Source: Spisula solida
Taxonomy: Eukaryota > Mollusca > Bivalvia > Venerida > Mactridae
Direction: 5' to 3'
Assembly (NCBI GenBank): GCA_947247005.1
Contig: OX365956.1
Span: forward strand, 999,501-1,063,500
DNA: 64,000 nt
Below the pieces are notes generated by a model. It was not told the DNA's origin. It worked only from the letters and a program-made list of their open reading frames with translations, and did not search any database. The position numbers were made by a program, and so were the translations under genes. This document shows positions 5,749 to 51,883 of the stretch, piece by piece (position 1 is the stretch's first letter; every line of letters starts with the position of its first letter).

Positions 5749-8700
5749 ATGGTAAGAGGTGTTTTGGGGAATTTTCATCAAGGTTCTGCAATTTTTTCGC
5801 CATACAATGGCATGCAATGTACTGCAATGGCTTTAGTTGCTTTATTAGGTCTTTTTCAATTTGGAAATGTTCCTTTTTCGACTATTACAGCTGCCGATGT
5901 TGATGGCATTTTGCATGAAGGCAACTCTTTGTACGCACGTATTGTGCAACCCATGCAACGCTTTCGCTATTTATCTCACACAGATTTACCAGATATTGCA
6001 AGTTTTCGTCAACAGTATTACAGTGTTCAGTACATAACTGATACGTATTATGGCTCCATTGATAGAACAGCAAATTTGGTTTTTGGTCAAATGGCCTTTA
6101 ATGATGCAATTTCACAGGCCTTCCTACTGTCAAGATACCAATTACTCACTTTAAATGATCTTACAATAGGTCTGTATTTGAATTCTGATAGTAATAGGTA
6201 CATGCTCTTTGATTCTCATGAAAGGGACATTAATGGTATGCAAAGTGAGGATGGTCGGTCTGTGTTGATGTCTTTTGAGTCTTTCGATGAACTTTTCAAC
6301 TTCATATTTGTCTATTATTCTGGATACACCTATGAACTCACACCCATTTACTTTACTTCAATTGAAACCAATGACCAAAGTAGTGATGTTGATAGTGTTC
6401 GTTGTTCACAACACATGAACAGTGAGCCAATGTGCACATTAGACGATAATTCTCAAGATGACAATCCAGACCTACTGTATGCATACCGACTTGAAACCTA
6501 TGACCGAAGTAGTGATGTTGATAGTGTTAGTTGTTCACAACACGTGAACAGTGAGCCAATGTGCACATTAGACGGTAATTGTCCAGATGACAGTCCAGAA
6601 CTACTGTATGCATACCGACTTGAAGCCTATGACCAAAGTAGTGATGTTGATAGTGTTCATTGTTCACAACACGTGAACAGTGAGCCAATGTGCACATTAG
6701 ACGGTAATTATCAAGATGACAAAGCTGAGCTACTGTATGCATACCGACTTGAAACTCATACAGAATTGCCTAATGATATAGAAAGTAGTTGTATGGAAAC
6801 AGAAATTGCTATAAATAATGACGATTCATTTCAATCAAGTCAAAGTTTAATTGAACCTCTTTGCATATGTAACATGACTGTACCAGACCATTCATATTCT
6901 AGTAAAAAGATTGTATCTAAAAAGAAAAAAAAGTATGGTAAAGATAAAATTCCCACTTTGACTGATCTAACACTCGTAAATGAAGAGGTTTCAAGTTCAA
7001 ATTTATGCATGTTAGAGGTAGGTCTAGTTTGCGATGTTGAAACTTCACTAAACATGACATTTATAGATTATGCGCTGTCAGCAAACCACATTAGTGCTTA
7101 CGAAATGTCTATTCGTTTAGTGCCAAAGTTTGTATGTTGCTCTTGTATGAGGCAGTTATTTGAAGATCAAGTAAAAACAATAAATAAAGGAAACCAGGTC
7201 ACTGAAACTTTGTCCTTGAACATACCTTGCCAGCTTTGTGTTACGTGTTGTTCTTCAATACGTAAAAATAAAATACCAAACATTGTATACAATGATAATT
7301 TCTTGAATCCTGGTATTATTCCAAATGAATTAATTGGTCTCTCTAATCTTGAGAAAAGGCTTATATCGCTTGTGAATATTTTTATGACAGTTATTATGTT
7401 ACCTGGTGGCCAGTATGCAGAAAAAGGTTTAGTAGTAAATGTACCTGCTCAAACTCAAGAAATAATTTCAAAACTGCCTTTAAATTCGCGTAACACTTCT
7501 CATGTTGTTGTTGGTTTTGAGAAAAGTAATTCCAGTGCTACAGAAGTAACTGGACACCCAGTTTCTTTGCAGAAATTAAGAGATGCTTTAACATGGTTAA
7601 AAAGAAATAATCCTTTATATTCAAATATAAATATTTCTGCTGACTGTCACCAAGTTGAATGCAATAATAGCTATGCACGTTTGGATTGTGACCTTGATGA
7701 ATGTGTCATAATACCTGTGAACCCATCTGGAAATTGCATTGTCAATAGTTCTTTAACTAATCAGCAAATTAACATAGGTCGTAATACAAATGCACCCATT
7801 AACATTTTGGAAATTTGCAGTGGTGAAGAACAAGCATTTCCTTGGCTTTTTCCTTTTGGTCACAGTGGTTTTAAGGTTGAACCTGAGCGTCCAATTAAGT
7901 TGAACCCCAACATGTACTTTCGTTCTAGATTGTATAATACTGATACAAGGTTTAGAAAAGATATAACCTACCTTTTGCATACTGCTGTTGCATACAACAT
8001 ATCTTGCTTGAAGTCTGCAGTTAATGTTAGAATGAAAATGATACATTCCAAAAGTCATGGTAATACTGATGCAGTGACTGTTGGTAACCTTAGAAATCTA
8101 CATGACCAGCCAGAGTTACTGGAAAATTCTTATATGTTCATGAAGAAAATAAAAGGTACAGTAGCATATTTTAAAAATATGTTGTATGATTTACTTGCTG
8201 CTTTTCGCTGCTTAGGACCCCCAACACTTTTTGTTACTTTATCAGCTGATGATTTACACTGGCCTGAATTAGGCATGACTTTAGAAAACATTGACTTTCA
8301 TGATGCTTTTGGGAAATCTTTTTTTACTTCTATGCGCAGTGATCCAGTCTTTACTGCTACACATTTTGAGAGAAGGTTCAGGTTTTTGATGAAACATGTT
8401 ATTTTGGCACAATCTAAACCTTTAGGTGAAGTACGCGACTATTTTGCACGAGTTGAATTTCAAAATCGAGGTAGCCCTCACATACACATGTTCATATGGA
8501 TAGCAAATATACCTCTTCTTATTGATGATAATACTGCCCAAGATGTTAAAACTTACATTAATAATACTATATCATCAGTAGTTCCTGATGAAAATTGTGA
8601 CCCAGAACTGTATGCACTTGTCACAAGATTACAAATACACAATCATTCTCCTTACTGTTCAAAAACCAGAACTATGTGTCGGTTTGGGTTTCCAAAAAAG

Positions 8701-11055
8701 TTATGTTCTGATACCAAGTTGTTGCGTAATGTTGATATTTTTTCACGCAATAAAGGAAGATTTTATGTCACAAAACGAGATGCCCAAAGCTTATATGTAA
8801 ATGACTACAATCCTGTCATTCTACGTCATTGGCGTGCAAATATGGATATTCAGATGATACAAAATGCGGAAGGTGCAGCTTATTACGTATGTTCATACAT
8901 ATGTAAGTCCGAGCCCGACGACTTAAAAAATGCTTTAGGGACATTAATACATGATGTCTTCCAGAGTAACCCATCTATTCCTAGAAACGTTCGGTTGTTA
9001 AAAATAGGCTTGTGTGTGTTAAAACATAGAAGAATGAGTGCCCAAGAGGCTGCATTTCGAATGGGCTCTTTACATTTATTACATGCTTCAAGACAATTTA
9101 TATTTTTAAATACCTGGCCTATACAGAAACGTATTAAGATTCTTAGGCCATTGCATGAACTTGAAAACCTTGATGATTCAGATATAAATGTTTTTCAGCT
9201 GAACATGTTAGATTACTATCGTGATAGACCAAGTACTTTAAATGATTATAGTTTATTTAGGTTTACATCTTGGTTTGTAAATATACCTGAACCACAAAAT
9301 AAAGAAAACACGTATCATTGTTCAAAGTATAATGTTTGGTTTCGACAAAAGTCAAAATTCAGTGTTGTACGTTACCCAAAATTTGCTGTTGGCTCTGAGG
9401 ACTATTTTTACAGTATGCTTCTTCTGCTTTTGCCTCACAGAAATGAAGAAGAACTTATTCATGGTTTTGCAACTGCCAAAGAAGCTTTTGAATCAAAGCA
9501 GTTATATTTTGATCAAAGTATTGATTTCATGTATATGTCTGTGACAGATGAAATAGAGTCTGCTATGAGAAGAATAAGAATGTGTGAAGCTGAATTATCC
9601 ACTGATAATTATAATAGTGAAGAGCAAGAAATAAACCTCCCAAATTCAACCTTCTCATCTATGCAATGTAATGATTTACCAGGTCAAAATACAAGCGATC
9701 AGTTTCATGGAGCAGTCTGTGGTGAAAATGTAAATGACACAACAATCCATTTACATAGTTTAGAATGTTCTTCTTCAGTTGAAGAATATCAGAAAAAAAT
9801 TAAAATGTTAACTCTTGACCAGAAGAAAAGTCTTCAACTTGTACAGTCTAGTATACAAAATTCCACACCTTTTCATTACTTTATAACGGGTGGTGCAGGA
9901 ACTGGAAAATCATTTGTTTTGGAAATAATAATAACCTACTTACAGCTATATACAGCCTGTCAAATTGGTACTTCACCTGTTGTTGTCTGTGCTCCTACAG
10001 GAACAGCTGCTAGAAATGTTCATGGCACAACTATTCATAGTTTGTTACAAATACCAGTGACACAGTATAATGAGTATGTACCGCTTTCTGACTTTGCATT
10101 ATCTAAGCTCCAGCGTACATTTAAAGTCATAAAAACAATAGTGATTGATGAGATCAGTATGGTTAGTGATGTTATGCTTACTTATATAAGTAGAAGACTG
10201 TCAGATATCATGAATGATGACAGTGCTTTTGGTGGTCTCAATGTCATAACTGTTGGAGACTTTTTCCAATTAAGGCCAATATTAGGAAAATTTGCCTTTT
10301 GCAATAAGCTTTTGTGGTCTTTATTTAAACCTATATTTCTGCACCAAAATATGAGACAATCTAATGATGTTCAATATGCCACTTTATTGAACAGAGCAAG
10401 AGTTGGATTACTATCTGAAGATGATATTACCTCCCTATTGTCTAGATTAAGTTATGATGAAAACATTGTGAACGGTGTTTTACATGTATACCCTCTCAGA
10501 AGAGATGTTTCAACTTATAACCAAAAAATGCTAGCTAAATTGCCATTTCTAAAGTATGCCCTACCATCGATTCACTTCTTTGGCAATAATGATTGTAATT
10601 CAGGTTCAGAAGTACCTGATTATATGATACCAGGTGATGATCGAGATGCTGGTGGACTTTTGAATAATTTAGAGTTATGCATCAATGCACGAGTTATGCT
10701 TCTACGTAATATTTTCACTAAAGATGGCCTTGTTAATGGAGCAATTGGATCTGTTCATTCATTTGATTTTGATAATGATGGTTCAATTTTGGCAGTCAAT
10801 ATTCTTTTCGATGATGACACAATTGGTCAGACTTTGCAAATACAGGAAAGTAATGCTATAAGTATTTCTCGTATTGAACATACTTTTTTGAACAATGGAA
10901 GATATATTGTCCGGTCTCAGTTCCCTTTAACACTTTCCTGGGCATGCACAATCCATAAAGTACAGGGACTTTCTCTTGACCACATATGTATTGACATAGG
11001 TAGTACTGTCTTTGAGAAGGGTATGGCTTATGTTTTTGTTGCAATTCGTGTCTAG
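5749..11055 (+). CDS. Helitron Rep/helicase with N-terminal peptidase-like domain
   Basis: One uninterrupted frame of 1768 codons. Residues about 1-180 resemble papain-fold cysteine peptidases of the OTU/viral-tegument deubiquitinase type: GMQCTAM (Cys24) and a FDSH motif (Asp155, His157). Residues 209-337 are three 43-residue repeats. About 456-625 match a DUF6570-like Cys-rich domain. The Helitron Rep part follows: HUH motif PHIHM (His911, His913) and the two catalytic tyrosines in YYVCSYICK (Tyr1046, Tyr1050). A Pif1-type SF1 helicase ends the protein: GGAGTGKS (Lys1387), DEIS (Asp1467-Glu1468), GDFFQLRP (about 1503-1510) and a motif V around SWACTIHKVQG. The frame stops inside motif VI: the expected YVALSR-like block is replaced by YVFVAIRV and a stop. 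The last helicase motif is therefore damaged and any further C-terminus lost. The role would be rolling-circle transposition in the nucleus. Family call is secure; activity is doubtful. Confidence 0.93.
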   Translation: MVRGVLGNFHQGSAIFSPYNGMQCTAMALVALLGLFQFGNVPFSTITAADVDGILHEGNSLYARIVQPMQRFRYLSHTDLPDIASFRQQYYSVQYITDTYYGSIDRTANLVFGQMAFNDAISQAFLLSRYQLLTLNDLTIGLYLNSDSNRYMLFDSHERDINGMQSEDGRSVLMSFESFDELFNFIFVYYSGYTYELTPIYFTSIETNDQSSDVDSVRCSQHMNSEPMCTLDDNSQDDNPDLLYAYRLETYDRSSDVDSVSCSQHVNSEPMCTLDGNCPDDSPELLYAYRLEAYDQSSDVDSVHCSQHVNSEPMCTLDGNYQDDKAELLYAYRLETHTELPNDIESSCMETEIAINNDDSFQSSQSLIEPLCICNMTVPDHSYSSKKIVSKKKKKYGKDKIPTLTDLTLVNEEVSSSNLCMLEVGLVCDVETSLNMTFIDYALSANHISAYEMSIRLVPKFVCCSCMRQLFEDQVKTINKGNQVTETLSLNIPCQLCVTCCSSIRKNKIPNIVYNDNFLNPGIIPNELIGLSNLEKRLISLVNIFMTVIMLPGGQYAEKGLVVNVPAQTQEIISKLPLNSRNTSHVVVGFEKSNSSATEVTGHPVSLQKLRDALTWLKRNNPLYSNINISADCHQVECNNSYARLDCDLDECVIIPVNPSGNCIVNSSLTNQQINIGRNTNAPINILEICSGEEQAFPWLFPFGHSGFKVEPERPIKLNPNMYFRSRLYNTDTRFRKDITYLLHTAVAYNISCLKSAVNVRMKMIHSKSHGNTDAVTVGNLRNLHDQPELLENSYMFMKKIKGTVAYFKNMLYDLLAAFRCLGPPTLFVTLSADDLHWPELGMTLENIDFHDAFGKSFFTSMRSDPVFTATHFERRFRFLMKHVILAQSKPLGEVRDYFARVEFQNRGSPHIHMFIWIANIPLLIDDNTAQDVKTYINNTISSVVPDENCDPELYALVTRLQIHNHSPYCSKTRTMCRFGFPKKLCSDTKLLRNVDIFSRNKGRFYVTKRDAQSLYVNDYNPVILRHWRANMDIQMIQNAEGAAYYVCSYICKSEPDDLKNALGTLIHDVFQSNPSIPRNVRLLKIGLCVLKHRRMSAQEAAFRMGSLHLLHASRQFIFLNTWPIQKRIKILRPLHELENLDDSDINVFQLNMLDYYRDRPSTLNDYSLFRFTSWFVNIPEPQNKENTYHCSKYNVWFRQKSKFSVVRYPKFAVGSEDYFYSMLLLLLPHRNEEELIHGFATAKEAFESKQLYFDQSIDFMYMSVTDEIESAMRRIRMCEAELSTDNYNSEEQEINLPNSTFSSMQCNDLPGQNTSDQFHGAVCGENVNDTTIHLHSLECSSSVEEYQKKIKMLTLDQKKSLQLVQSSIQNSTPFHYFITGGAGTGKSFVLEIIITYLQLYTACQIGTSPVVVCAPTGTAARNVHGTTIHSLLQIPVTQYNEYVPLSDFALSKLQRTFKVIKTIVIDEISMVSDVMLTYISRRLSDIMNDDSAFGGLNVITVGDFFQLRPILGKFAFCNKLLWSLFKPIFLHQNMRQSNDVQYATLLNRARVGLLSEDDITSLLSRLSYDENIVNGVLHVYPLRRDVSTYNQKMLAKLPFLKYALPSIHFFGNNDCNSGSEVPDYMIPGDDRDAGGLLNNLELCINARVMLLRNIFTKDGLVNGAIGSVHSFDFDNDGSILAVNILFDDDTIGQTLQIQESNAISISRIEHTFLNNGRYIVRSQFPLTLSWACTIHKVQGLSLDHICIDIGSTVFEKGMAYVFVAIRV
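6373..6759 (+). repeat. Three in-frame 129-bp repeats within the Helitron gene
   Basis: Copies start at 6373, 6502 and 6631 with GACC(A/G)AAGTAGTGATG. The exact 129-bp period equals 43 codons and preserves the frame, so the protein carries three copies of an acidic, Ser/Asp-rich linker between the peptidase-like and Cys-rich domains. Confidence 0.92.
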
Positions 11056-27159: not shown

Positions 27160-29383
27160 CTACTGGCAGTGGCAACACACAAATTGGTCACCTCTCCTAA
27201 TTACCCGTTTTGCATGGCAGAAAACTAAATGAACCCAGTGCCCACACAAGTCACATTGTCCCCAATTAACGATTTTCAAGTGGGGATTGTCATTTAGATT
27301 AGGTGGAGAGAACCTATTGCTGACACAACAAACGTCTGTGTCATCTTCGTCTTCGGATGATATTGATGATGAACATGGGTCAACAATCGTGATAATACCA
27401 CTTGTACTGGGTCTGAGTTGGTAAGCTGTGTTGATTCCTCAGCTAATGGCTCATCCGGCTGTCTATTCTCCTTATCACAGTCTTCATACGTGTTCATCTC
27501 CTCTAAGAATACCTGTAAGAAAATAATTTAAATTGTGCGTCTTACATTAATGTTAGCCAAGGGTGGATACATATTTAAATCGTACATATGCATATAGAAA
27601 GTTTCAGAGAATATTGGTAAATAAACTGACCTGACTTGTGATTTCTCTACCGCTTGGGTTTGGTTTTTTCCTAATTCTTTTCAATTTACACTTGCATGGA
27701 GATGGTGAATTTGTGTTTGTATCGTTCAGCTCACTCCTGAGGTATTCATCTACGGCGGCGCTTCCTCCCTCGATTGCCTTTAGCTTGTCCAGTGGTGAAT
27801 GGTCCCTGAAAGCCTCGCATGGAAGAAGTTTATCTTCAGGCACCGCATCTTCATTCATGGGGAAAATTCCTGTTTTTTTGAAGGCCGATACTATATTCCA
27901 TGGGTTCATGGCCTTCAAGTAGGCCTTGCAGGCTATTGCACCCATGTCGTATCTGAAATACAAACTCCAAATTAACATTGGAATCAAATATGGATGCGCA
28001 TTTATGTAAATACCTCATTGGCCATATTTAAACATGTGTTTCACCAATTGCATCATTTTTTAAATCTACATTTCATTGGGTGTAAATTGAATCTAAATAA
28101 GTACAAATCAACAGTCATTGATGTCAATCTTAAAGTCAAGACATACCGTGTAACTATCTTCCCCATGTTCGACTTCATGTATGAAGCACATTCGCTGTAG
28201 TAGAACCTCTTGAAGGGCCCGAACACAGCAACATCGAGGGGCTGTAGTATATGCGATGTGTGTGCTGGTAGAATGAATAGGATTATTTTCCTCTCAAGGG
28301 CCCATTCGATCATCAGTCTTGATGTGTGGGTTGAATGACCATCCATTACCAGAAGAACGTGCTGCTCAGGATCTCTTGATACGTGTTTCAAGAAATGATT
28401 TTCAAGGAAGTCCTTAAAAACCTGAGTCGTCGACCAGCCAGAGTCAGACATGACATACCTCGACCCAGGTGAGGTACCCTTCATCAGGTCATCATTCATC
28501 CGTTTGTCTGTAAATATATGCATTGGTTCACATTTAGTATTTTTTGTTATTATTTGGTTTAACAGATAATCAATACATATACATTTTAATAGATACTGTT
28601 AGTTTGAATACTTAAATTTACCATAAAACACTGCATAGTGCATACATTACTTATTATGTAAAAGCCAAAATGTTTTTTCATATAAGTACTACACAAACCT
28701 TTGAACACAAAGTAAGGTGGTGGGTGGTTGCCAGAAGCATTGGCACATCCAATTAGGGTGGTACTACCAGATCTTGGAGAGGTAATCGCCCGTGCCTTGC
28801 CTTCTGTTGGTGTAATAATGTTTGGCGGTCTGTGCTCGGGACTGATGGCTGTCTCATCCATATTATAGATCATTCCTGGTTTGTCATGTAAACCGTTATC
28901 ATTTATGGTCTTATACAAGTTTTTGAAATATGTTTTTACGATTTCTGGCGTAGCATTCTTGGCCCTACTGGCCTCGAGAGCACCAGGCTTAAATGACGCT
29001 ATTCTATCATGCCATCTCTTCATGAAACCGTATAACCAACAATTACTTAATGGTTTGTCAGTTGTTCTTCTATTAAACTTATACGCTAGTTCACCAGCGG
29101 TCTTCTGAAGAGCTCTGTTCGTATACCCATATCCCAACCTGGCACTACGTTCAGCCTCTTCCACCAGCCTAAGTTCTTCTTCTCTTGTTAATATAGTGGC
29201 ATTTCCTACATTCTCTGGGTCCACTTTTCCTTTGACCCTGTCAGCTAATGTCTGATATGGGATGACATACTCCAATGACACTTTATGAATGGAAACACCA
29301 CCTCTTCTGACATCTGACAAAGCCAACTTCAACTTTTCAGGGTCATAACATTTATATTTCCCATGACTTTTAGATGGTTTTAG
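27160..29383 (-). pseudogene. Pogo/Tigger-like DDE transposase, four exons, one frameshift
   Basis: Four coding blocks joined by GT-AG introns with matching phases: 29383-28699 (phase 1), 28507-28147 (phase 2), 27952-27631 (phase 0) and 27512-27160. Block 1 has a pipsqueak/CENP-B-type HTH (around KLKLALSDVRRGGVSIHKVS), a CENP-B HTH region and the first catalytic Asp in NMDETA (28858-28856). Block 2 has the second Asp in VMDGHSTH (28343-28341) and the third in LQPLDV (28235-28233), 35 residues between them. The last exon is one base short of a whole number of codons. After a shift near 27410 the frame continues into a Cys/His-rich tail (WGQCDLCGHWVH, then CCHC) and a stop at 27160. Before 29383 there is an acceptor (TTTTCAG), so the start codon lies on an upstream exon I could not find. 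It is either a once-domesticated gene or an intron-bearing transposon. Confidence 0.85.
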
Positions 29384-29536
29384 CTGAAAATAACGAAAAT
29401 AGTTGCATAGTAGGCCCAGATTTATTGCATTCTAGATCTACAAAAGATAGTGTTATTTCATCGAATTCATGTAAGACAACTATAATTGTTAGTGATTTTA
29501 TTGATTTATTTGATCTTGACTGGCAACAAAGATTTA

Positions 29537-32772: not shown

Positions 32773-33613
32773 AACAGTATGCGATAACTGGTAATATCAG
32801 AGGCCTAGCTACAAGGACCTGTACGATAACATGGCTGTTTGTTTCCGCTGTAAGTTTCACGTGATTTATGTCTGTTTGTCAGTATGGAAGGCGGCCTTCC
32901 GTGTCTGTGGCATAGGAATTTGTAGAAATCACTGGGTAAGGGGACTCATTAGACCAGTAGTTCCAGTACTCGTGCCTGCAGTACCATACATGGGCGATTA
33001 ATTTCTGTACGATCTTTATTGAAAATTGTCCGCGTTTAGCGTGATTCCAAGCTTTGTTTACATTTTCATCCGAAAATAGTTCCCGCAGGCGTCGCTAGGT
33101 TACTGTGTCTAGGTTACCGATTTTACTCCATTCATACTCGCTATTTTGTTAAGCGGATGGGTTTATTTCAGTGTGTGTGGGCTATTGGCTTCATTCTTGT
33201 GTTTATTATTATAATCTTTAATGTTGCCGCGAATTAGCGCGCCACAAACCGTGAAACGGGTCATCCATAACACTTGGTTTTGATTTAGTGAAGATGGGAC
33301 AAGGGAGGCAATCCTTCCTCAATTATTTCTGTATACATCTGAGTTACCTCCCATTGCCCATTCTATTATCATTATGAATGTCATTTAAATATATTATTGT
33401 TCTGATTACCCTTTTGTCATGTCTTTTCAATTGGATTTTGAATTAAAATTAGTGTTTTTTATTTATACATGGTCTGTTTATTCAACATGCTTCAAGTGTT
33501 TCTGGTATTTTGGCCAATTTCATTCTAGATCTATTTAGTGTCTCATTTTACAGTAAAACTTATTGGCAACTGTTTGATCTTAAATTTAGTATTTTATTTA
33601 GGTGTTATGACTG

Positions 33614-33851
33614 TGTAGTGAATTGTCACTACATGGACTACAGTAAGACAGTATGTAAGTTTAACTCACCTAAGTGGGAAGTAGAAACTTCGGGTACGTC
33701 TTTCCAGTAGTAGGTATAAATGCACAGAGAGCGAACACAGGCTGACAAGCCTGGCCCAGAGCATACGTCAGACCAGGACGCTTCTGATTGGCTGATACCA
33801 CTTGTTATGGTTGGAACAGCCGGCCCGCTGTTCCGACGTACAAATACTACA
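33614..33851 (-). repeat. 3' LTR of the Gypsy element
   Basis: On the plus strand it runs TGTAGTGAATTG to AATACTACA, so TG and CA ends are present. No difference from 43192-43429 was seen. Confidence 0.95.
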
Positions 33852-33866
33852 TTCCCCCCAACTTTA
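33852..33866 (-). other. Polypurine tract
   Basis: On the minus strand AAGTTGGGGGGAA directly abuts the 3' LTR, the expected primer for plus-strand DNA synthesis. Confidence 0.8.
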
Positions 33867-34252
33867 TAAAATCAACCCCCACCCAGGATAAAGACCCCAT
33901 TTAGAAAACCCCATCTTTTACAAAAAGTAGGTTGCAGAATCCAAAAAGCACCCTACGTGGGCATGATAAATATATACCATAATTTCATAAAAAATCCCAG
34001 CCAAACAGGTAGCCACATGGGCACCTGAACGCAAGATAGGATAATGATCCACGCCCCCCTATCATAGGGACAATGAAATGGAACCCAAGTATAAGAAGAC
34101 TTGTTTTCCAGACCCAGAACCATAGTTGCTATCAAATAGTTAATTTAAAATACAGTAACTGATTAAGTAAAAATTGTCTTAAATTGAAAATGTTCTCGGG
34201 GGCTGTAATGTAAGTTGACCACAGTATAGACTAAAATAAAGCACTTCCCCCG

Positions 34253-36403
34253 TTAGGTAGAAACCAACTCCTGGCTGAAACGGTACAATCTCCTGGTGTT
34301 TTCCACGGTGGATTTAAGGACAGATGGGAGAGAAACTCCCCTCCAGTCCGAAACCATTTTTGCCACTTCCCCTATAAAACAAGGACGATTTACATGAGAA
34401 GACCCTCTTGGGGACAGGTATGGAGCATCCGTTTCTACCAAGAGTCTGTCATCTGGGACTCGTTTGAGACCCGCCACCTGGTCTGGGGAGAAGTACATAA
34501 CCGATGCTGTGAAGCCAAAATAACAGTTAGTGAAATATGAACTCCAACCTTCTACGTCAAAATAGTTGCCGCTAAAGCAATGTAAATGGATAGGTTGGAG
34601 TTTCCCACAGTGGTTTTTAACTATCTCAAATGCTGTGGAAAAGATAGCCAGGCCCTTTACCGTGTTATTTCCCCTTAAATGAAGAACGAGGGTCCTAGAC
34701 GTGGTGCAGTACGCACCAAGAAAGTGGTTCAGAAAAAAGACCTGTTCATCATAAGAAACCCGGTCTTCCGTGAGGTCCAGGCCTACTTCCCCTAGGGACA
34801 CAATGGCGGAGTGTGCCAATATATTTTGAAACCTTAGCTCCCTCTCTCGAGTGAGATCATGAATTTTGCGAGGGTGCACTCCTATTGCCATCCTAACCCT
34901 TGGATCGGTAGGGACCTCTGCTGGAAAAGTTTCCGGGTCGCAATACACAGCCACAATACCGAGCAGATTCACGGGAACTGGGGAGGCCAAAGACTCATTG
35001 AAAATATAGTCAATGCCTGACTTGCCACGCAATTTTCCCCCCAGTCGATCTACGTGCATATGACTGTCTATTGCACTTAGAGTCCTACATGAAAAAGAGG
35101 TTTTAACCTTAGGCCTTACTACTACTTGAGTGGAGGGTAAACTTAGGTCTTTTAACACTTCAGCTACCTTGGTTGACAGGGTAGCGGTTGCAACTGCCTT
35201 AGATGCAACAGACTTAACCCTACCCAGGTCAGACTTAGCCCTTTTCCACTCTGTGGCTTGCTCTTTGGAAACCATGTTGACTAACGCCACAATTGGTCTC
35301 CAATGAAATAAGCATGCCACTGAATTTAAAGGAAAGAAACTAAACCCTCCCTTAGGTAATTCCCAACCACGAGACACACATAAGGCCTTTAAATACTTCT
35401 GAAACTCAGAAGTGACCACAACACCCGCCGGAATTTTACCCCTACTATTTACCATTTCCACCAGGTCGACCAGCCCAACATCTTTTTGACCATTGATGAC
35501 CTTACCCAACTCCTTTAGAGACTTAATTTGCTGGGCGACCTTACCCACATCAATCTTGCACACCTTAAAATCCGTAATAAAAAGTTTAAATGACTTAGGC
35601 AGATGCCTTCCGACCACATGAGGTCTTAGAGCTCTTGACCTATGCATGCACCCCTGAACTGGACATGAACCTGGACCCTTTGTTTTAGGACGCTTGTTCT
35701 CCTTATTTTTACCTCCCTCTTTTTCCCCTTGTGTCCCCATTTTCTTAGTTGTAATTTTGACAACAGGCACCGGAGCAGGAGAAGGAGGTACGATTGGCTC
35801 ACTAGTGTCCATAGCGGAGTCTGCCATAGACTCTGCCATAATGTCTCCTGCAGTAGGACTAGCTAAAAGCTTGTCCTCCTCTTCAGGTGACAGACCTAGA
35901 TCACGACCAACAGCCGCATCCTCCCTCAAGACTTGGAGATTGTTATTATCATCCAATAACCTTACATCCTTACACACCCCCGAGAGCTCTTGGACCTTGA
36001 CCTGTTTCGGGATGGAGACCTTATTCCTACGGGAATTCTTATGAGGGATATTGTCTAATATCCACCGACTACTAAAAAATGTGGGAGCATAGAGCTGGGC
36101 TTGTTCAACCCAACCCCAATTTCCCCCACTTACGGCCAATTGATACATCTCCTTTACAAGACGTTTGAACTCCTCATCAGGAAATCCAACCGTCATGCCC
36201 AGGAGACCTTCCAATAACTGTTTGGGCGGAATTAACTGCCCATTAGTTAAGGCCGTCTCTATTTTAGTGGTGGTTTCAATTATCTTATTCATTGTTAAAT
36301 GTCCTAACTTACCGAAATGGAAATGGTTCTTAACCTGAAAGTATACAATGTTAAGAATATTAATTACAATTCGAGCAAAAGTACTCGTCGATATCGAGAG
36401 CAT
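34253..36403 (-). CDS. Gypsy ORF3: C2H2 finger plus TatD-type nuclease domain
   Basis: 716 codons from the ATG at 36403; a second ATG at 36292 (residue 38) comes after the pol stop and may be the real start. Residues 38-240 have no recognised domain and end in a Lys/Glu-rich basic stretch. A C2H2 finger follows: Cys247, Cys252, His262, His267. Residues about 443-712 form a TatD-family metal-dependent hydrolase: DSHMH (His448, His450), GVHP (about 508-511), SLGEVGLD (Glu539), VLHLRG (His575), HLHCFSG (His608), VETDAPYL (Asp659) and ENTRRLY. These are the usual metal ligands, so DNase activity is plausible. The gene lies where env would be, overlaps the pol end by 44 bp in another frame, and has an acceptor-like TACTTTCAG at 36335. 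Role in the element is unknown: DNA processing, target cleavage or interference with host DNA defence are only guesses. Confidence 0.9.
36330..36345 (-). other. Possible splice acceptor for ORF3 mRNA
   Basis: TATACTTTCAG followed by GTTAAGAACC lies about 45 nt upstream of the ATG at 36292. It suggests a spliced subgenomic mRNA as used for env genes. A donor-like CGGTAAGT occurs 22 nt further on, so the motif could also be chance. Confidence 0.35.
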
Positions 36404-39400
36404 CCACAGGTGTTAAATTAACGCAGGCGCCATGAAACCATTCTGCACATGCATCACATTGGATCATGAATCTCTGCTGGTATGGCTGTCTACAGTGACA
36501 ATACACAACTGAATCAGACCTGGAGTCCACCTTAGGTACTGATTTATTCAATAGTTGTATGTTATCCCTGAATTTTTCCAACCAAGAGGGTAATTCACGA
36601 TCCAAACATTTTTTAATTTTGTCATGGTGGGCAGTAAATATGATAGAACGGAATTTTATCTTGTAAATGGATGCTGACATTTTTGCAACTATTATTCCTG
36701 GACCCTTCCACACTGGTGCAAGTTTTCTACTTTTCCCTTTCGGGACGTGTGAGTTCAGAACATAAACCAAATCCCCAGTGTCATATTGTTTTTGTAGGAT
36801 TTTTAGGTCATAGTCCCGACTCATACGTTTATGGGCTCCCTTAAGTTTTTCCCTGGCGATTCGGTTGGCCTCGATCATGGATCCCTCTAATTCAGCTAGA
36901 TACTCGTCCTGTGTTTTGTTATCACCAAGTACCCCCATATTTAATGGATATAGCAAATCTGCAGGTAAACAGACCTCCCTTCCTAACATCAATTTGTTGG
37001 GCGAGTAGCCAGTGTCTCTGTTGACACAAGACCGTAAAGCCCCACTTATTTGAGGTAGGTATAAATCCCAAGTACCTGGAGATTTTTGTACAAAACACCT
37101 GACGGCATCCATTAAAGTTCTATTAAAACGTTCCACTTGGCCGTTACCGGACGGTCTGTATGGGGTAGTTTTGGCTTGATGAATTTTGGTAATTTCACAC
37201 ATTTTAGAGAACAAGTTACTTTGGAAATTTCTGCCTTGATCACTAAATATTTCAAAAGGAAAACCGAATCTACTAAAAAACTCATTGATCAAGGCCCTAG
37301 CTGTTACTTCCGCTGTCTGAGAAGGCAATGGAATACACTCTACCCACTTTGTGAACTGGTCCACAATCATGAGTACGTGCTCATTTCCCCTCTCAGTGCG
37401 TGTTAGAGGTCCCAAGAAGTCAATGTTCACCCTTTCCATGGGAGAACCGGCTTGAAAACTCTTTAGGGGGCTCCTTGACTTACGATTAGGTCGTTTGCCT
37501 TGGTTGCAAGGAACGCACGATGCAATATACCTTTGGGTATCCGCTCCCAGGCCATGCCAAAAGTACTTTTGTTTGAGTTTGGCCTTTGTACGTTCCATAC
37601 CTTGATGACCCCCGGAGGGTAAGTCATGGTTTAGACACAAAACCTCAAGTTTGAGGGATTCAGGAATAACCAGTAACTTATCCTCATCTTCAGGGTTCTC
37701 GCGCCATAAGACCCCCCCTGACAGAGTGAACATATCCTTATTGATCCAGTAGAACTTGGTACTTGGACTTGATCGGAATAAGGTACCCTCAATGGGCTCC
37801 TTTCCATCCATCAACCAGTCCAGCAATGGTTTTAGTTCTGGATCTTTGTTTTGGGCCTCAATTAACAGATTTTTATCAAAACCCCAATATGTCAAACCAG
37901 GTGTAGCCCCGTTAACAGCCCAGACAGAAACGCTTTCCCCAATTTCGCATTTACCCTCATTGGATACTATCTGAAAGTGGCTGTGGGGAGAGTCCCCAAT
38001 GTCGCCTTTTCCAGCTGATCCATGAGAAACTGCACAAGCTGTGGGTGAATCGTCAACAACGTTTTTGGTGGTCAAGGGTACTGCCTCATCTACGTTGGAA
38101 GCAAACTCAGACCAATTTTTATGCATTCGTTGACAATATGGACACCCACCGCAAGGTAAATTCTCAACCCCCCAACCTAATTTGTAATGTCTACACCCCT
38201 CAGAATTAGGTAATCTAGATAGTGCATCGGCATTAGAGTGCTTGGAACCTGGTCTATGACACACTTCCATGTCATATTGGCTCAGTTCTTCCAACCATCT
38301 TGCAATCTGACCTTGAGGGTTCTTGAAATTCAACAACCAGGTTAGACTACTGTGGTCAGTGCGAACTTTAAACCTATGTCCTAGCAAATAATGACGAAAC
38401 TGTCTAGTGAACTTTATGACCGCCAGCAATTCCAGTCTGGTAGTACAGTACTTTCTTTGCTCGGGAGACAAAGCACAACTAGCATATGCAATAACTCTTT
38501 CTTCCCCATTTTGTATTTGAATAAGCTCAGCTCCCACTGCAACCCCTGAAGCATCGGTATCCAATATGAACACATCTTGCCCATTGGGTATAGTGAGAAC
38601 TGGTGCCGATGTTAAAGCCAAAATTAAATTGTTAAATGCTGTTTCTTGTTCAGCCCCCCATGAAAATGCATTTTTTCCAGTTAACCTATAGAGGGGCGCA
38701 GCAATCTGGGCAAAATTTTTGATGAAACCCCGATGATAATTAGCTAATCCCAGAAAGCGTTCAACATCTTTTGAATTTTGAAGTACGGGCCAATTTTTTA
38801 TCACTTTAATGGACTCGTCTGCCATACATAGACCCTCGCCTGAGACAGTGCGGCCTAAAAAGTCAATCGTGGTCTTAAAGAACTCGCATTTCTTAGGCTT
38901 TAATTTAAGTTTGTATTGCCTTAGTCTCAAAAATACCTTTCTCAGATTTTGTAAGTGGTCCTGGAATGTTTTCCCCAGGACCATGATGTCGTCAAGAAAG
39001 GCTAAAACTATGTTCCATGCGAGACCCCTTAAAACCAGTCCGATAACCCTTGAATATGTTGCAGGCGCATTGCATAAACCAAATGCCAACTTAACAAATT
39101 CAAATAGACCATACTTAGTGACAAATGCAGTTTTTGGTCTATCCTCTTCCGCAATTGGTATTTGCCAATATGCAGAATTGGCGTCCAATTTAGAGAACCA
39201 ACAGTTGCCGTACAAAGCATCTAGACACTCCTCTATGATGGGCAATGGATAGACGTCCTTAATTGTGACATTATTTAAGGCCCTATAATCTAAACACCAT
39301 CTTAGTGACCCATTTCTTTTACGCACCAATACAGGGGGTGAGGCCCATTCAGAAATGGAGGGTTGAATTACCCCTGATTTAAGCATTTGATGTAGGTGCG

Positions 39401-40526
39401 CCTCCTCCTCAGCAGCAAAGCCAAGTGGAGTGCGACGCATTTTTTGTTTAATAGGCCTCGCGTCCCCGGTATCGATATGGTGATGGATATCTTTAAACCC
39501 CCCAAGATCGAAATCCGTTTTGGCAAAGACATCCTGAAACTCATTTATTAACTGTGCAAACTCAAGTGCCTGATTTTTATCCAATTCGGATATAGAATTT
39601 TTAACCATGCTTTCTAAATGTTCCGGCACTAGGGAAGTTTTGCCCGAAGTGTTTGCTTGAACAGAACATGCCCGAAAACCAGACTCCAGCTCTGCTGGTA
39701 TTGGTTCTACCGTGCATGCCATATGAGCCTCAGCAATCTTTTGCCCTTTCCTTAAAGTGACGTAGGTATCTGCCACATTCAATACACATACTCTGGTATT
39801 AGTACCCGACGTGTGTACTGTACGTGGCATAAGAAACCTACTATTGTCAACAGGTTCTATCACAAATTGAGATAAATCCTGTTCTAACCCACATTGTACA
39901 TGAGCCATGGAATTAGGGGGAATTACAATTCGTTTAGTAACTTTGACCGTGGAAACAGTAGGGGCGTTGTGGAATAAGCCCACAGCCATGGTAATGATCT
40001 CTGGACCTATTGTGAGATTGGACTTTTGTAAATCCAGTTGAACCCCATAGGTCTTTAAGAAATCCAACCCTAGCAACATTTCATCCTCTATGGGAGCCAC
40101 ATACACACACATGTTGTAAGTTTTTCCCCCAAGCTGAAGACGAATTGGACCCACAATAAACCCATACATATCTAATTGTTTCCCGGCCGTATGTAAAGTC
40201 ACCCCTTTAATGAACCTTGGTTTTGGTTCCATTCTCCTATACAGTGAGTCAGAGATTATGGACACTTCGGCTGCTGTGTCAACAACCGCCTGAGTACGCA
40301 AGGTATTGACACCAACAGGCACCCGGTACATAGACCCAGAACGCATTTGACAGACAGTTACTGTCTCAGGCGCTGCGTCTACGTCCCAAGCGTCAATGAT
40401 ATCACTACTCGCGCTGTCCACTAACTCAGAAGGCTGAGGCCCTGTACACCAAGAATTTTGGGTCGAACTTAGGCCTCCGTGTCCGACCCCATGTAGTTTT
40501 CCGAATCCTCTAGGGGACGGTCCAAC
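36360..40526 (-). CDS. pol: Gypsy Pol: protease, RT, RNase H, integrase, PHD finger
   Basis: The frame is open from just after a stop at 40527-40529 to TAA at 36360. It overlaps the gag end by about 58 bp in the -1 frame and lacks an early ATG, so expression by -1 frameshifting is likely. Residues are counted from the GTG at 40421. Retropepsin motif VDTAAEVS (Asp48); RT with KLDANSAYW (Asp413) and FLDD (Asp477-Asp478, Phe instead of the usual Tyr); RNase H with DTDAS (about 621-625), Glu664 and TDH (Asp689); integrase zinc motif His932, His939, Cys969, Cys972; integrase core Asp1001, Asp1061, Glu1097 with D,D-35-E spacing. The C-terminus is a C4HC3 PHD finger (Cys1308, 1310, 1322, 1325, His1330, Cys1333, 1349, 1352) with Trp1328 at the position used by H3K4me3 readers. 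A second Cys-rich knot lies at 743-767 between RNase H and integrase. All catalytic residues are present. Confidence 0.95.
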
Positions 40527-42376
40527 TCATTTTGGTCGCCGGACACATATGAAACTGACCTAGAAGTGTTAGGTCGTTTATTGGGGCATTCGGCTGCGAA
40601 GTGGCCCTCTTGTTTGCATGCATAACATATCTTTGTGTTATATGTTCTGCTACGCATGGGAGAGGGCGACTTTTCAAACCTTACCTTCTTAGGGTCAGAG
40701 GTCAATTTGTCCACTGCCCCCTTGATATCACTCAACATCCCCAGAACCTGGCCCATTTGCCTTTCTAGGTTAGTAACCCGGTCAGACAGGGACGCGGAAG
40801 GGGACCCTGAGCTTTCTCTAGGGTTGATGGGTCTAGCGCCACGACTTGGAGAGTTTGTAATGGCCATGACAGAGGGCGAGACTACCACTCGCTCACTAGA
40901 GCTAGCAGCCGTCTCCTCCATAGTCACAGCCCTTACTGATTTAGGCTTACCAAAAATGACATGATGATTGAGATTATGCCACCTTATGGCCTCCACGGCT
41001 GCATCGACAGAAGACGGGCGGCTTGGGCCAGTTATGACCATGTGCCCCGCTCTCTTGTCATTGCAACCCTGACAGAACCTAGTGACAGACAATTGTTCTA
41101 TCCTGCCATCAGGGAGTTCTGGAAACGCCCTGAATGCCAGGTCAGAAATCCTGTCTGCCCAATCATCTAAGTCTTCGTCGTCTTTTTGACAGGCAGTAGT
41201 GAATTCTGCCATTAAATTCTCCGGAATGTCTTTCTTTCCAAAGCGCTTAGTTAAATTGGCCTCTAATTGGTTATATGATATATCTGGATGTCTGTCCAGC
41301 AGATTAGCATAGTAATCAGCTGGCTTTCCATCCAGACACCACAACATAACAGATTTTCGAGATTCTCCCTCCCAGCCACTGTTTATACAGAAACTTAAGA
41401 ATTTCCTAAGCCATGTTTTCCATTCGGTGGTCCCATTATATATTAAGGGCTTGGGAATTTGGCACATTTTCTGGGTATTAGCCCTTCTTTCAGCCGTTCT
41501 GTTCCCCATGTCCCTAGAACGGTGACCACCCTCCCTCATCATGTCCGCCAACATCTGAGTGGTTTGGAGAGTGCCTTTTAGAATGCCAACCAAATTTTGT
41601 TCGGCTTCTGCAGGCTCCCTCCAACCACTACCTTGATGGTGATCATAGTAATAATCAGTATCTCTTTCGCGAGAGGGAGATCTATAATTATCTTGTCTGT
41701 TGTTGGTGTAAAGCTTAGTGGATTGAGAAACAGGGGTCTTAGTCTTATATTCTGAACGCTTAGCCCATTCTTTGGGGCGAGTGCTCTGGATATTTTGACG
41801 GATGTCATTTTTAGGTAGCTCCAATTTACGTTTTTGGAACTCTGTTATAACATCTATACACCCCCTCATCTCATCCGCCACATTTGGGTTAAGGGGCTGG
41901 GAATCTAACCCTGTCCCCTCAGATACCTCAATATCTTCAGGTTCATTAAAACCTTCTGATTTGACTGGCATGTCGCCTTTATGTGCATTGGCTCTATGAA
42001 TAGTTATTAATCCCTGTGAGGAATTCTCTGGCATTGAATTAAGCATGGTTAGTTCCGAATCTTGTTCAACAGTCTGTGTAGTGAGAACAGGTCCGGCCAC
42101 ATACGTGTCCGTATCTGACTCCCCACCAGAACACATTCCAAGATTCTCCAACACCTCCTTACTGTAAGGATAATGGGGCATATTAAAACTAATGCAATTC
42201 AAGAACTCCTCCGTTATTGTTATACCGCTTATATCATTTATATTTTGAATGGTAAATGGTCTATTTCCGCGGAGTTTCACAATTTGATTAGCCCTTGCAG
42301 GCCCAATGTTCTCCAATTTTTGCAAATTTTCGAAACTATCATAATTAATGTGAACTAGGATTGGTTTTTGAGCCAT
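40469..42376 (-). CDS. gag: Gypsy Gag with N-terminal helix-hairpin-helix and CCHC knuckle
   Basis: 635 codons from the ATG at 42376 (MAQKPIL); upstream codons in frame lack an ATG. About residues 15-60 match a ComEA-like helix-hairpin-helix: [20 protein letters not shown] and a following DISGI. The middle, around [19 protein letters not shown] to WHNLNHH, is the retrotransposon Gag capsid type. A coiled-coil-like stretch ([19 protein letters not shown]) precedes a single zinc knuckle [14 protein letters not shown] (Cys-Cys-His-Cys). The frame ends 58 bp into the pol frame. Gag should form the virus-like particle and bind genomic RNA. The HhH domain is not part of a standard Gag. Confidence 0.93.
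40496..40502 (-). other. Candidate gag-pol -1 frameshift site
   Basis: GGAAAAC in the gag frame (G GAA AAC) lies within the overlap between the gag stop and the upstream pol-frame stop. It is not a canonical X XXY YYZ heptamer because the P-site would mismatch. The overlap itself is solid; the precise site is a guess. Confidence 0.3.
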
Positions 42377-43191
42377 TTTTAAATAAGGTCTAATAAAGTT
42401 GATGTACAATGAATTACCAGGTCAATAACACAAGGGTATACAATTTAGGGTCAACAACAATAATAAACAATGAGCCAATTGGTAAGGACAAATGAACCAG
42501 AGTCACGTACAAAAAATTTATAAAATACCCCAAACAAATTGTTTTTGTGTTGAAAATCAGTCAACCATAAAATAAATCAAAATAACCCCAAAAAGTATTA
42601 CAAGGGCACAAAACTATGGTTCAGTCCTTCAAATTACATAAAGTGCAAGATAAGATGTTCAATATCTGTTCTTATTGGGAGTTTACGTTCAGTTTTAGTG
42701 AAATTAACTTGCCAACACGGCTCGTAGGTGAATAACCGGAAACAGGAAGTCGCGGTGCAAATCCAGATGAGAATCTCGAAAATGGCAATTCACAGCGCGG
42801 AAAAATATTTTTATTCAAAATATATCCGTGTTCCCGACAAAATATCACCCTACGATACGTAAAACAGCAAGCTAATAACCTATAGCGCCTTACGTCGCCA
42901 AGAAAAAATATCACGTGATGCAAACAATGGCCGCTCACACCACGGGAAAAATAAAAATCCCTGCGACGATTTAAGGCACAAAATAGCGTCCTTGTCCCAC
43001 TGTTTTGTGGACAACAACACTTAGAAATTGTTGGAAACAATGTTTACGTGGTGCAAGCTCAATAGCGGCCTGCACTGCACTACACGCAAATATTCCAACG
43101 ATTGAACGTAAGTCAATCCCCCAAACACGCACAGATATCAACAAACGCGTAAGCTATTTCACGCGAAGGAACAAATGCTCGCAGCGCCAAA
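42377..43191 (-). other. 5' leader of the Gypsy element with PBS
   Basis: Directly after the 5' LTR and a TT spacer lies TGGCGCTGCGAGC (43189-43177), a primer-binding site beginning with TGG. The remaining 0.8 kb is untranslated leader. A 122-codon frame inside it has no recognisable domain and is probably chance. Confidence 0.7.
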
Positions 43192-43429
43192 TGTAGTGAA
43201 TTGTCACTACATGGACTACAGTAAGACAGTATGTAAGTTTAACTCACCTAAGTGGGAAGTAGAAACTTCGGGTACGTCTTTCCAGTAGTAGGTATAAATG
43301 CACAGAGAGCGAACACAGGCTGACAAGCCTGGCCCAGAGCATACGTCAGACCAGGACGCTTCTGATTGGCTGATACCACTTGTTATGGTTGGAACAGCCG
43401 GCCCGCTGTTCCGACGTACAAATACTACA
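43192..43429 (-). repeat. 5' LTR of the Gypsy element
   Basis: Same length (238 bp) and sequence as 33614-33851. It should carry the promoter of the element, reading to the left. Confidence 0.95.
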
Positions 43430-44621
43430 ACTGATTGGCTGTTTCTTGGAGATTTTAAGGAACTGTAATGATCCTGGTTTATTAAGTCGGATAGATTATA
43501 ATTTCAATTATGTTATTATGGCTATATAATTATCATTTTCTCTTTGATATATTAATTCACATGTCTTTTATCTGGTTGTTTGACTTCATTCATATATTTT
43601 ATAAATAAATATCCTTTTATCTGGCATTATTGATTTGTGCGTTCATGATCTGTCTCCCTTTTTAAGGCCGTAGTAATAAATAAATTAAAGGTATACTGTA
43701 CATGGATGATTATGATCAATTGTTAATTGTACAAAGTTATTTATGATATTGATAGTATACATTTTACTTAGCGGAGCCGGCGGGGACACTTTTTATGGCA
43801 ATATGGAACTACTGAGATCTTTTTATTTGATGTAATATTGCGGGTTTAACTGATTAATGCAGTGAGTCTATGTGGTTTCTTTATAGTTAACCAGCGTTTG
43901 AGTTAAGTGGAGTGTAAATTGCTTTTCGTGATATGCCCTCTTTGTGTGTTACGACTCCTGCCAGAGAGGTAGGGAGTATGTCGTTGGGATCACAATTTGG
44001 TGTATATGTAATTTTCAAAGTTCCGATGAGGCCCTGTTGACGAGATGTATGGAATATTACCGAAGGGTTTTACCGGTAACTCATATATTAGGCTGGTCTT
44101 AATATAAGACGTACTATTTTATGTATGTCCGAGCAATCCAATGGAAGCACTAGAGTAGCTCTGTGAGGTGTAGGTCCTGCGGCAGTTGATTGTCGTATGT
44201 TGAACTGTGGAACGTATGGCCCTGAATTGGAAGTAAGGGTGGTCTATGATATATCTGGGTAGCGAACCCCTATTCAGAATATAGTCTAGCATACTAGCAT
44301 TTGGCATAGGGGAGTTACACTGCATTATTGAGGGGTGGAAGTTGTTCTGGACGTTAGTAGCCTTGGTCAGGGGAACAATGTTCAATAGTGCGGGTTACCA
44401 CAGATCACTATTCTAGGTAGTCTACTAGATGTTTATGGAACTGTACTGAATTTATTTGCCTCCATATAATGGGGTTCAGTAATCAAGTTCTTTAATACGG
44501 AGTGGAAATTGGGTTGTAAAAATATAGGGTTTATGGTCTCATCATGAAGCTTAATTTAAATGCTGTTTGACTGAGTGGGTATAAAAGCTAATATGGGGTT
44601 TAACACCATCTGCTCTTTGTC

Positions 44622-47009: not shown

Positions 47010-47400
47010 AAAGACTTGGTCATTTTGTCCAGCCAACCTGATTTTGTTGTTGTTGTTACTTCTATATCCATACGGCTTGGTCATCTTGTCCAGCCAAACC
47101 GGATTTGTGAAACGACAACTCATTTCTCCATTAGGCTTGGTCATGTTGTCCAGCCGAACTGGATTGGTACAGCGTTGCTTATGTCAGTTAGGCTTGGTCA
47201 TCTTGTCCAGCAAACCTGATTATTTGTAGTAACTTCTATTCCATACGGCGTGGTCATCTTGTCCCGCCGAACTGGATTTGTGAAACGAACACCTATGTAT
47301 TCCATTAGGCTTGGTCATGTTGTCCAGCCAAACTGGGTTGGTATAGCGTTTCTTTATGCATTTGGCTTGGTCATGTTGTCCAGCTGAAATGTGTACTTCG
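47010..47400 (+). repeat. Tandem array of about 60-bp units with CTTGGTCATSTTGTCCAGC
   Basis: Seven units. The core GGTCAT(T/C/G)TTGTCCAGCC is far better conserved than the spacer, which suggests constraint on the core or spread of the core alone. Confidence 0.88.
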
Positions 47401-47566
47401 GTAGAATAGACCGATCATGCATGATGTTCCTGTGGGTGCGGAAGGATTAACTGAGGCCTTCAATTTATGTGGGTATTAATTTAGGGTTACTGAATTGTAT
47501 TTTAAATCAGCTGGGTTAATTGTGGTCATGATTATTGAATTCATTTCTGGATTAAATTTGGCCAGT

Positions 47567-47760
47567 TGTCAGTTATTGGGTTATATATTCTGCAGGGGCA
47601 GTTAGTTTTTTCATGGTTACCAGTACCATTTTGTCAGTTTTTGGGTTATATTCTGCTGTGGCAGTTAGTTTTTTCATGGTTACCAGTACCATTTTGTCAG
47701 TTTATGGGTTATATTCTGCTGTGGCAGTTAGTTTTTTCATGGTTACAAGTACTGATTAAT
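47567..47760 (+). repeat. Three tandem units of 63-65 bp
   Basis: Units start TGTCAGTT at 47567, 47632 and 47695 and contain GGCAGTTAGTTTTTTCATGG and CCATTTTGTCAG. Confidence 0.92.
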
Positions 47761-47822
47761 TGGATATCTCTCAGACTTTAATAAACCTGTTTGCGGGGCT
47801 CTTCAAATAAAGTCGGGGGGAG

Positions 47823-50428: not shown

Positions 50429-51195
50429 TCCAAGGTCATTCCATTTCATCGTCAAAGCCGTTTGTTCTTTGAAACCTAACAGGTCAACGGCACAGTTTGA
50501 GTCGCGTTCATTTTATGACAAAATGTACGTTTTCAACAAAATAATCATTGATACCCTATCAATTGGACAATATTCTATCAGTATACCCCAAAAAACAAAC
50601 AGTTTCGCAAGAAATACCATCAATTCCGTCTATTGTTTCAAACCTGTCCAATTTCAATTTTTTTGTTTACGATCGCCATTTATTTGAATGGGATTATAAC
50701 AATAGTGTTCCGAAACGAACCACATGATCAATGTTTTGATTGTCGGCTGCGTAAATTGCAATATTTATTTGTGTAAATGGGAGTTACATGATTTATAGCA
50801 AAAATAACTTGTTTGTTTCTTATGTAAAGGTATATCTAAAGGTTTTATTTAATTTTAAGACGTTTTCGACCATGTTTCATGAAATAACGGATTTTTCGAA
50901 AACGGCTCTTGCACGCACCTGTGATAAATTAATTATTCAAAATGGCTGCGGAAGCTGATCAAACGCGGAAGTAAATAAACTTTAAGCAATATATGATTAT
51001 CAGTAGGTGTTACATTGACTGTTTTAAGACAAAACCCTTGAAAAATATTACATTTATACGTAAATTATAGTTTTTGGGCGATTTTTGAACAATGAACGTT
51101 AAGCTTAAACAGTTGATTATTGAAGAGGGTTATTCCATAACTTAAAAGCCGACACGTCGTAAATAAAAGACCATTTAGTTATGGTATCCAGAACT
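50429..51195. mobile_element. Insertion inside the LINE RT region
   Basis: The LINE protein similarity stops at AAGGATGACCTAG (50416-50428) and resumes at AAGGAAGACCCAG (51196-51208), which look like a target duplication of about 13 bp with two changes. The ends show only weak inverted similarity. The 0.77 kb body is non-coding and unclassified. Confidence 0.6.
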
Positions 51196-51632
51196 AAGGA
51201 AGACCCAGCAAATTATAGGCCCAACTCTTTAACATGTATTCTATGTAAAGTACTAGAATATATTGTAGCCTCAAACCTTACTGCCCATTTTATTAGAAAC
51301 AACATCCTCTATGATTTACAACATGGTTTTAGGGCATTTCGATCCTGTGAGACACAGCTTCTGCAACTTGTTGACAACTTAGCTAAAAATATGACCAATA
51401 GCCAACAGACAGATATGATTTTATTAGATTTTAGTAAAGCGTTTGATAAAGTTAGTCACCTTAAACTTCTATATAAATTACAGGAACATGGAGTAAACAA
51501 TACAGTAATCTTATGGATTAAATCATTTTTAATTGGTAGAACACAAACTGTAGTTCTGGAAGGTGATTCATCTTCAGAGGTCCCTGTTACATCTGGGGTG
51601 CCCCAAGGATCCGTACTAGGCCCATTACTTTT

Positions 51633-51883
51633 TATGCCCCCCTATCGATAGATGGGGAGGCATATAGTGATTCACCTGTCCGTCCGTTCGTCCGTCCTGG
51701 TTAACCTAAATTGACCGTTTCTTCTAGCATTAATATGGCTTGCTACAAAGCTTTCATACTTGCATGGATGTTGTGTATAAACACTCTCCACACGCCAGTA
51801 TCACCTAACCCCATTTTGACCTTCACCTTGACCTAATTTTGGACTTAGACTTATTTATGGACAAGGCTTCCACAGGGGGCATA
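51633..51883. mobile_element. 251-bp MITE with TATGCCCCC ends
   Basis: TATGCCCCC (51633) and GGGGGCATA (51875-51883) are perfect 9-bp TIRs. It interrupts the RT coding region between GPLLF and the FADD block. Its body contains tandem CCGT words (GTCCGTCCGTTCGTCCGTCC) and matches 15.4-15.6 kb in the other orientation. Confidence 0.82.

Follow-up and report, generated by a model that had tools for sequence, protein, structure and literature searches.

Introduction

What would a Ty3/Gypsy retrotransposon do with a nuclease gene in the place where such elements have either nothing or env? The question is raised by the window analyzed here, a 64,000-nucleotide stretch of contig OX365956.1 of the bivalve Spisula solida. 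RNase H and integrase are generally regarded as the only nucleases that an LTR retrotransposon has to supply for itself; an additional, conserved enzyme of a family that includes AP-endonuclease and R-loop activities would point to a step of replication or survival that other elements leave to the host. Among the papers listed by full-text searches of mainly open literature, none was recognizable by title, beginning of abstract and term counts as a report of TatD-bearing Gypsy elements. Passages from surveys of mollusc and annelid LTR elements (12 of 33 places in PMC6238403, and parts of PMC8220671) contain no third-gene nuclease, and TatD does not occur in a survey of polychaete LTR elements (PMC8556966).

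Architecture of the element

The element spans 9816 bp of the minus strand (33614–43429), as delimited by its LTR pair, domain order and length; all of its features given below are on this strand. The two 238 bp LTRs (5′ LTR, 43192–43429; 3′ LTR, 33614–33851) are 100% identical and are flanked by a target-site duplication, CAGT, on the 5′ side (43430–43433) and the 3′ side (33610–33613); a matching 4 bp duplication is found in ten of the 12 copies of the same family (family A). Direct reading shows a purine-rich tract (33852–33865) adjoining the 3′ LTR and a putative primer-binding site (43176–43189) whose TGG begins two bases past the 5′ LTR. The gag frame (40469–42421) has a CCHC knuckle over the Pfam cut-off near its end, together with helix–hairpin–helix and PNMA-like matches that are both below cut-off. 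At the start of Gag in family B (L042:326–1726) the helix–hairpin–helix match reaches 32.9 bits, over the cut-off, compared with 17.8 bits (below) in the window copy; we would not expect this motif in a Gag. The pol frame (36360–40526) encodes protease, reverse transcriptase (RT), RNase H and integrase according to its open reading frame and the order of Pfam matches, and by similarity ranking its best match among solved chains is the Ty3 polyprotein (7q5b; 337.5 bits). The integrase terminates in a PHD finger (36366–36500; PF00628, 34.1 bits, cut-off 24). The closest solved relative of this finger is that of PHF2 (61.8 bits), followed by PHF8 and BPTF. The alignment with the integrase finger preserves four residues (Tyr, Tyr, Met and Trp) that we take to form the H3K4me3 cage of PHF2, and the integrase may therefore target active promoters.

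The paired LTRs with a short target duplication and the Pfam order protease–RT–RNase H–integrase are those of Ty3/Gypsy elements (Metaviridae), with which the element also shares gag and a pol whose closest solved relative is Ty3. It differs from them in the PHD finger at the end of its integrase and in a third gene that encodes a finger and a TatD domain instead of nothing or env. The initial annotation had described an apparently intact, young Gypsy element with a TatD nuclease in the env position, and both points are borne out by the identical LTRs, the CAGT on both flanks and a PF01026 match in the frame directly 3′ of pol. The window thus holds a recently active Ty3/Gypsy element whose third gene directly follows a PHD-ended integrase, and we regard the anatomy of the element and of its third protein as described here as nearly certain.

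The third gene and its predicted product

The third frame is open for 719 codons from stop to stop (34253–36412). It had initially been read as 716 residues from an ATG at 36403; the open frame stands but this start does not, since it lies upstream of both the pol stop and a splice-acceptor motif, whereas an ATG at 36292 is common to the related families. The gene from the shared ATG (34253–36292) encodes 679 residues plus the stop. Its product is predicted to consist of a helical N-terminal domain, a C2H2-like finger with a conserved helical region, and a class II TatD nuclease. The N-terminal domain (residues 1–98; 35999–36292) gave no confident match in a fold comparison. The finger (C210, C215, H225 and H230; 35603–35665) is invariant in 22 aligned rows; in a 27-row alignment of the window protein with families B and C and a further 24 sequences chosen from 218 returned, its last His is invariant and its other three ligands are at least 90% conserved. 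Together with the helical region, which the alignment shows to carry an NSxAxLxHWR motif, it covers 35243–35674.

The nuclease domain (34280–35071), assigned by Pfam, alignment and fold, matches PF01026 (TatD_DNase) with an E value of 4.8e-34 and 118.3 bits (cut-off 27) over residues 448–711 of the open frame and positions 1–253 of the 253 in the profile, a significant result that excludes the absence of a match, named beforehand as a possible refutation. The domain has the TIM-barrel fold of TatD proteins. Its active site is of the HxH type (class II), with the motif DSHMH; the class definition in PMC10085689 assigns HxH to TATDN2/3. The metal ligands H, H, E, H, H and D are invariant in all 27 rows of the chosen alignment, and all six are also present in family D. 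They had been listed correctly as His448, His450, Glu539, His575, His608 and Asp659, in numbering from the ATG at 36403, and the description of a C2H2 finger followed by a full TatD domain was likewise accurate. No envelope domain was detected in the third protein, for which TatD is the sole Pfam match up to an E value of 0.1.

Copies in the host genome and related families

Searching the host genome (932 Mb in 36 contigs) with the third frame as query returned at least 64 matches; 62 of the 198 candidates were scored. Twelve of these places, the window copy and 11 others, contain the third frame at full length and were taken as the copies of family A; because they were retrieved through that frame, they are silent on how many copies lack it. 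LTRs flank all 12 fetched copies on both sides, and in ten the two LTRs do not differ at a single position. The third frame is free of stops in ten copies and contains a stop in two. In one copy (L004) the last part of gag and the first part of pol are missing, and gag or pol is disturbed by small insertions or deletions in several. Family A has moved very recently.

With the Pfam TatD model, 109 matches were obtained in the host genome. TatD-bearing open frames recur at 719, 747, 748, 753, 784, 806 and 823 residues, and there is one of 672. Beyond family A we examined family B (672 residues), family C (806) and family D (784), leaving aside the frames of 747, 748, 753 and 823. Over the aligned part, the third proteins of families B, C and D are 49–52, 30 and 29% identical to that of the window, with corresponding values for the TatD domain of 57, 36 and 36%. 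In families B, C and D, domain scans show the TatD frame to be preceded by integrase, a PHD finger or both, LTRs being shown in family A only, and in all four families a PHD finger ends the integrase beside the third gene. In family B gag is present, but the gag and pol frames are broken. A one-off capture, named in the initial annotation as an outcome that would overturn its reading, is excluded: three diverged families keep the order integrase/PHD, finger, TatD.

Integrase/PHD is found upstream on the same strand in 28 of the 38 TatD loci, some of which overlap one place; seven of the family D loci show only the last 17 residues of integrase/PHD because the stretch ends there. The ten loci that have no integrase upstream are decayed, truncated or rearranged copies, or families outside the query set. 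Eight of them (L023 included) have 294 to 1318 bases available for it, so decayed or pol-less copies exist, and in the other two the upstream stretch is too short or nearly so. At L023 a piece of integrase is present on the wrong side of the TatD frame. A copy of family C (L044 and L045; G000:C13:11883500–11893000) has no RT frame upstream of the integrase but instead 99%-identical blocks, which are repeated downstream of the TatD frame in changed order. Several family C matches in the host-genome searches share equal scores. This copy may be a spreading, pol-truncated derivative.

Relatives in other genomes

Protein collections were searched with the profile (best 120 of 4187 matches) and with the region (best 120 of 197). 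Among the matches listed, finger, HWR motif and TatD domain occur together in Lytechinus pictus, L. variegatus, Saccostrea cucullata and Pecten maximus, and shorter relatives without a complete finger occur in Haliotis cracherodii, Saccostrea echinata and others. The relatives are named as uncharacterized proteins or metal-dependent hydrolases. That such proteins might be annotated as host genes had been suggested in the initial annotation, and in oyster, scallop and sea urchins relatives do stand as ordinary genes. TatD-bearing elements could explain multi-copy TatD genes in the annotations of marine invertebrates. In two further papers, TATDN2 is among the non-Hox genes shown with the Hox cluster of the giant squid (PMC6962438), and neighboring YabD and TATDN2 genes are tabulated in an oyster mapping study (PMC10778899); these genes may be insertions of such elements. 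Two TatD proteins of the retroelement kind (P0130 and P0136) are labeled as belonging to Sedimenticola bacterial bins and are probably animal DNA, i.e. host contamination of the bin. Elements of this kind could also account for such TatD proteins in bacterial genome bins. In another relative (P0024), the chain that contains the finger and the TatD domain also gives a CCHC zinc-knuckle match, which hints at RNA binding by the third protein.

Constraint on the third frame

It had been claimed from the intact frame that the nuclease is kept by selection. An intact frame in a young element is by itself a weak argument for this, because such a copy has not yet had time to decay; codon changes among copies provide better evidence. 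The ratios that follow are raw counts against the commonest codon, uncorrected for transition bias and shared ancestry. The third frame of family A has 17 synonymous and 28 nonsynonymous changes (two of the latter being stops), with a pN/pS of 0.49 (p = 0.03); for the TatD domain alone the numbers are 5 and 7 (pN/pS 0.43, p = 0.17), which is not significantly non-neutral. The ratio is 0.23 in pol and 0.17 in gag; constraint on the third frame is weaker than that on gag (Fisher p = 0.04), and the comparison with pol gives p = 0.07. In the third frame, the eight loci of family D have a pN/pS of 0.25 (p = 6e-9) from 41 synonymous and 33 nonsynonymous changes, of which 16 and 12 fall in the TatD part (pN/pS 0.23, p = 1e-4). 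Selection on the third frame is clear in family D and marginal in family A. The claim of selection is better supported by family D and by the conservation between families (29–52% identity) than by the intact frame.

A mere passenger, that is, a host gene captured once whose frame is open only through the youth of the copies, would suit the marginal signal in family A and the stops in two of its 12 copies. It is largely refuted and now very improbable: four families with third proteins 28–52% identical retain the frame, the ligands and the position, the family D ratio departs strongly from neutrality, and relatives of the same build occur in oyster, scallop and sea urchins.

Expression of the third gene

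A splice-acceptor-like TTTCAG (36335–36340) lies between the pol stop and the ATG of the third gene. The motif recurs in families A (12 of 12 copies), B (both copies), C (one copy) and D (seven of seven and L054, the eighth locus, L052, being left out), and under a first-order Markov model the probability of meeting it by chance in such a region lies between 0.008 and 0.024 in families A, B and C. A splice-donor-like TAG/GTGAGT (TTAG/GTGAGT with the preceding base) is found in the 5′ LTR (43242–43250), and within family A, where the donor was examined, it is present in the 3′ LTR of all 12 copies. In the LTR of this family it is downstream of a TATA-like motif (TTTATA; 43293–43298) and a CCAAT-box-like motif (43365–43369), both of them sequence matches only. 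Retroviral env is translated from a singly spliced mRNA, and errantiviruses and other env-bearing Gypsy elements have a third gene after pol. The motifs suggest that the third gene is likely to be translated from a singly spliced, env-like mRNA, with its donor in the LTR and its acceptor after the pol stop. The element thus resembles errantiviruses in having a third gene after pol that is probably expressed, as predicted from these motifs, from spliced mRNA; unlike theirs, the only Pfam match of its third protein is to a nuclease (PF01026).

Origin of the nuclease domain

In a tree of TatD domains, 66 of element type, a label assigned by search rank, are split from 32 of bacterial type by a single branch (100/100). 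A second tree contained 32 element-type and 23 bacterial-type domains and the host TATDN2-like gene, with TATDN1 and TATDN3 left out; eight long-branch rows had been dropped, and the set had been thinned to one in two of the element rows and about one in five of the bacterial rows. In this tree element-type domains plus host TATDN2 are separated from bacteria with support of 100/99, and element-type domains alone with 90/91. The host gene, on C12 (frames in L055 and L057), is split by introns and is missing its last exon; we call it TATDN2-like from features that we take to be those of TATDN2. The motif [FYH]CDP occurs in 50 of 67 element-type domains and in none of 148 others, and a more permissive version, selected post hoc, in 61 of 67 and three of 148. 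The host gene carries FCNP.

The element domain thus shares with TATDN2 the HxH active site, an [FY]C[DN]P motif and a similar FPN/FTN..GxT segment. It differs in that the element gene is a single frame whereas the host gene is split by introns, and the 700-residue frame of the host gene that runs into the TatD start is, by eye, without the finger–HWR module. Bacterial TatD/YcfH proteins stand further off, as the CDP motif is absent from the 148 bacterial-type rows and the bacterial-type domains in the tree fall on the opposite side from the element domains. QatD, of the Qat anti-phage system, is comparable as a recruited accessory TatD nuclease, but the window match to it (59.7 bits, NCBIfam) is far under the family cut-off of 230 bits and its context is prokaryotic defense. 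Descent of the nuclease domain from an animal TATDN2-like gene, and not from bacteria, appears probable. We hold it no more firmly because pairwise scores rank host TATDN2 as close to bacterial-type as to element domains and because TATDN1 and TATDN3 are missing from the tree. A captured nuclease of host type seems to be in use by a mobile element.

Possible function

The activities described for the TatD family frame what the third protein might do. TATDN2 is described as acting on RNA both as a 3′ exonuclease and as an endonuclease, as resolving R-loops and as being required in medaka primordial germ cells (PMC12709183); AP endonuclease activity is described for TATDN1, TATDN3 and E. coli TatDs, and 3′ exonuclease activity for TATDN1 and TATDN3 (PMC10085689). 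By analogy, the enzyme would most economically act on RNA:DNA hybrids, 3′ ends or abasic sites of the element itself. Tethering to the RNA, cDNA or capsid of the element would fall to the finger and helical parts, the nuclease would trim or nick RNA in RNA:DNA hybrids, cDNA 3′ ends or abasic sites, and a clean double-stranded copy would be delivered to the integrase. That the exact role of the protein is to process or repair nucleic acids of the element itself is a tentative assignment, to which we give slightly less than an even chance. Counting against it, the third protein is not fused to Gag-Pol, so that packaging with the replicating RNA is not required.

The separate frame would also suit a protein of counter-defense, in which the nuclease destroys silencing nucleic acids or signals, for example small RNAs, or cDNA in the cytosol that innate receptors would sense. 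TREX1 is a 3′ exonuclease that limits innate sensing, and accessory genes are often under weaker constraint; the third frame of family A is less constrained than gag, and 3′ exonuclease activity is known in the TatD family (PMC10085689). We nevertheless consider counter-defense unlikely, as nothing in the present evidence ties the protein to a defense pathway and the finger and HWR region are conserved along with the nuclease, which suggests a fixed partner over a fast-changing host target. A part in target-site choice, with the nuclease and the PHD-ended integrase clearing R-loops or nicking active promoters in the nucleus for insertion, would make sense of the PHD finger adjoining the third gene in families A–D, of PHF2, PHF8 and BPTF as its closest solved relatives and of the action of TATDN2 on R-loops (PMC12709183). 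The regular 4 bp duplication in ten of 12 copies is, however, what the integrase alone is expected to produce, and we think this part quite improbable.

Returning to action on the element's own nucleic acids, its combination with the anatomy described, the spliced mRNA and the TATDN2-like origin is in our view the best explanation as a whole, with the chances that all of it holds evenly balanced. More broadly, and with somewhat greater reserve, there may be an animal LTR lineage that has captured a TATDN2-type nuclease in place of env, uses it on its own hybrids or damaged cDNA and pairs it with an integrase that reads chromatin. In that case, many of the genes annotated in molluscs and echinoderms as TATDN2-like or as metal-dependent hydrolases would be parts of such elements.

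Other features of the window

On the plus strand, a 1771-residue open frame (5740–11055) with matches to Helitron_like_N (107 bits), PIF1 helicase (104 bits) and DUF6570 is a predicted Helitron replicase-helicase with an intact frame. Adjoining frames on the minus strand (28053–29431) match Psq and Tc5-type HTH domains and the DDE_1 endonuclease (74.9 bits) and represent a predicted, broken pogo/CENP-B-like transposase. A reverse transcriptase fragment on the plus strand (51163–51651; RVT_1, 86.1 bits) is LINE-like by eye. Two pairs of direct repeats, 31424–31572/47823–47971 and 32678–32771/44613–44706, lie 12 to 16 kb apart and bracket the Ty3/Gypsy element; they are not its LTRs. Tandem repetition is present at 47067–47410 and 47584–47772.
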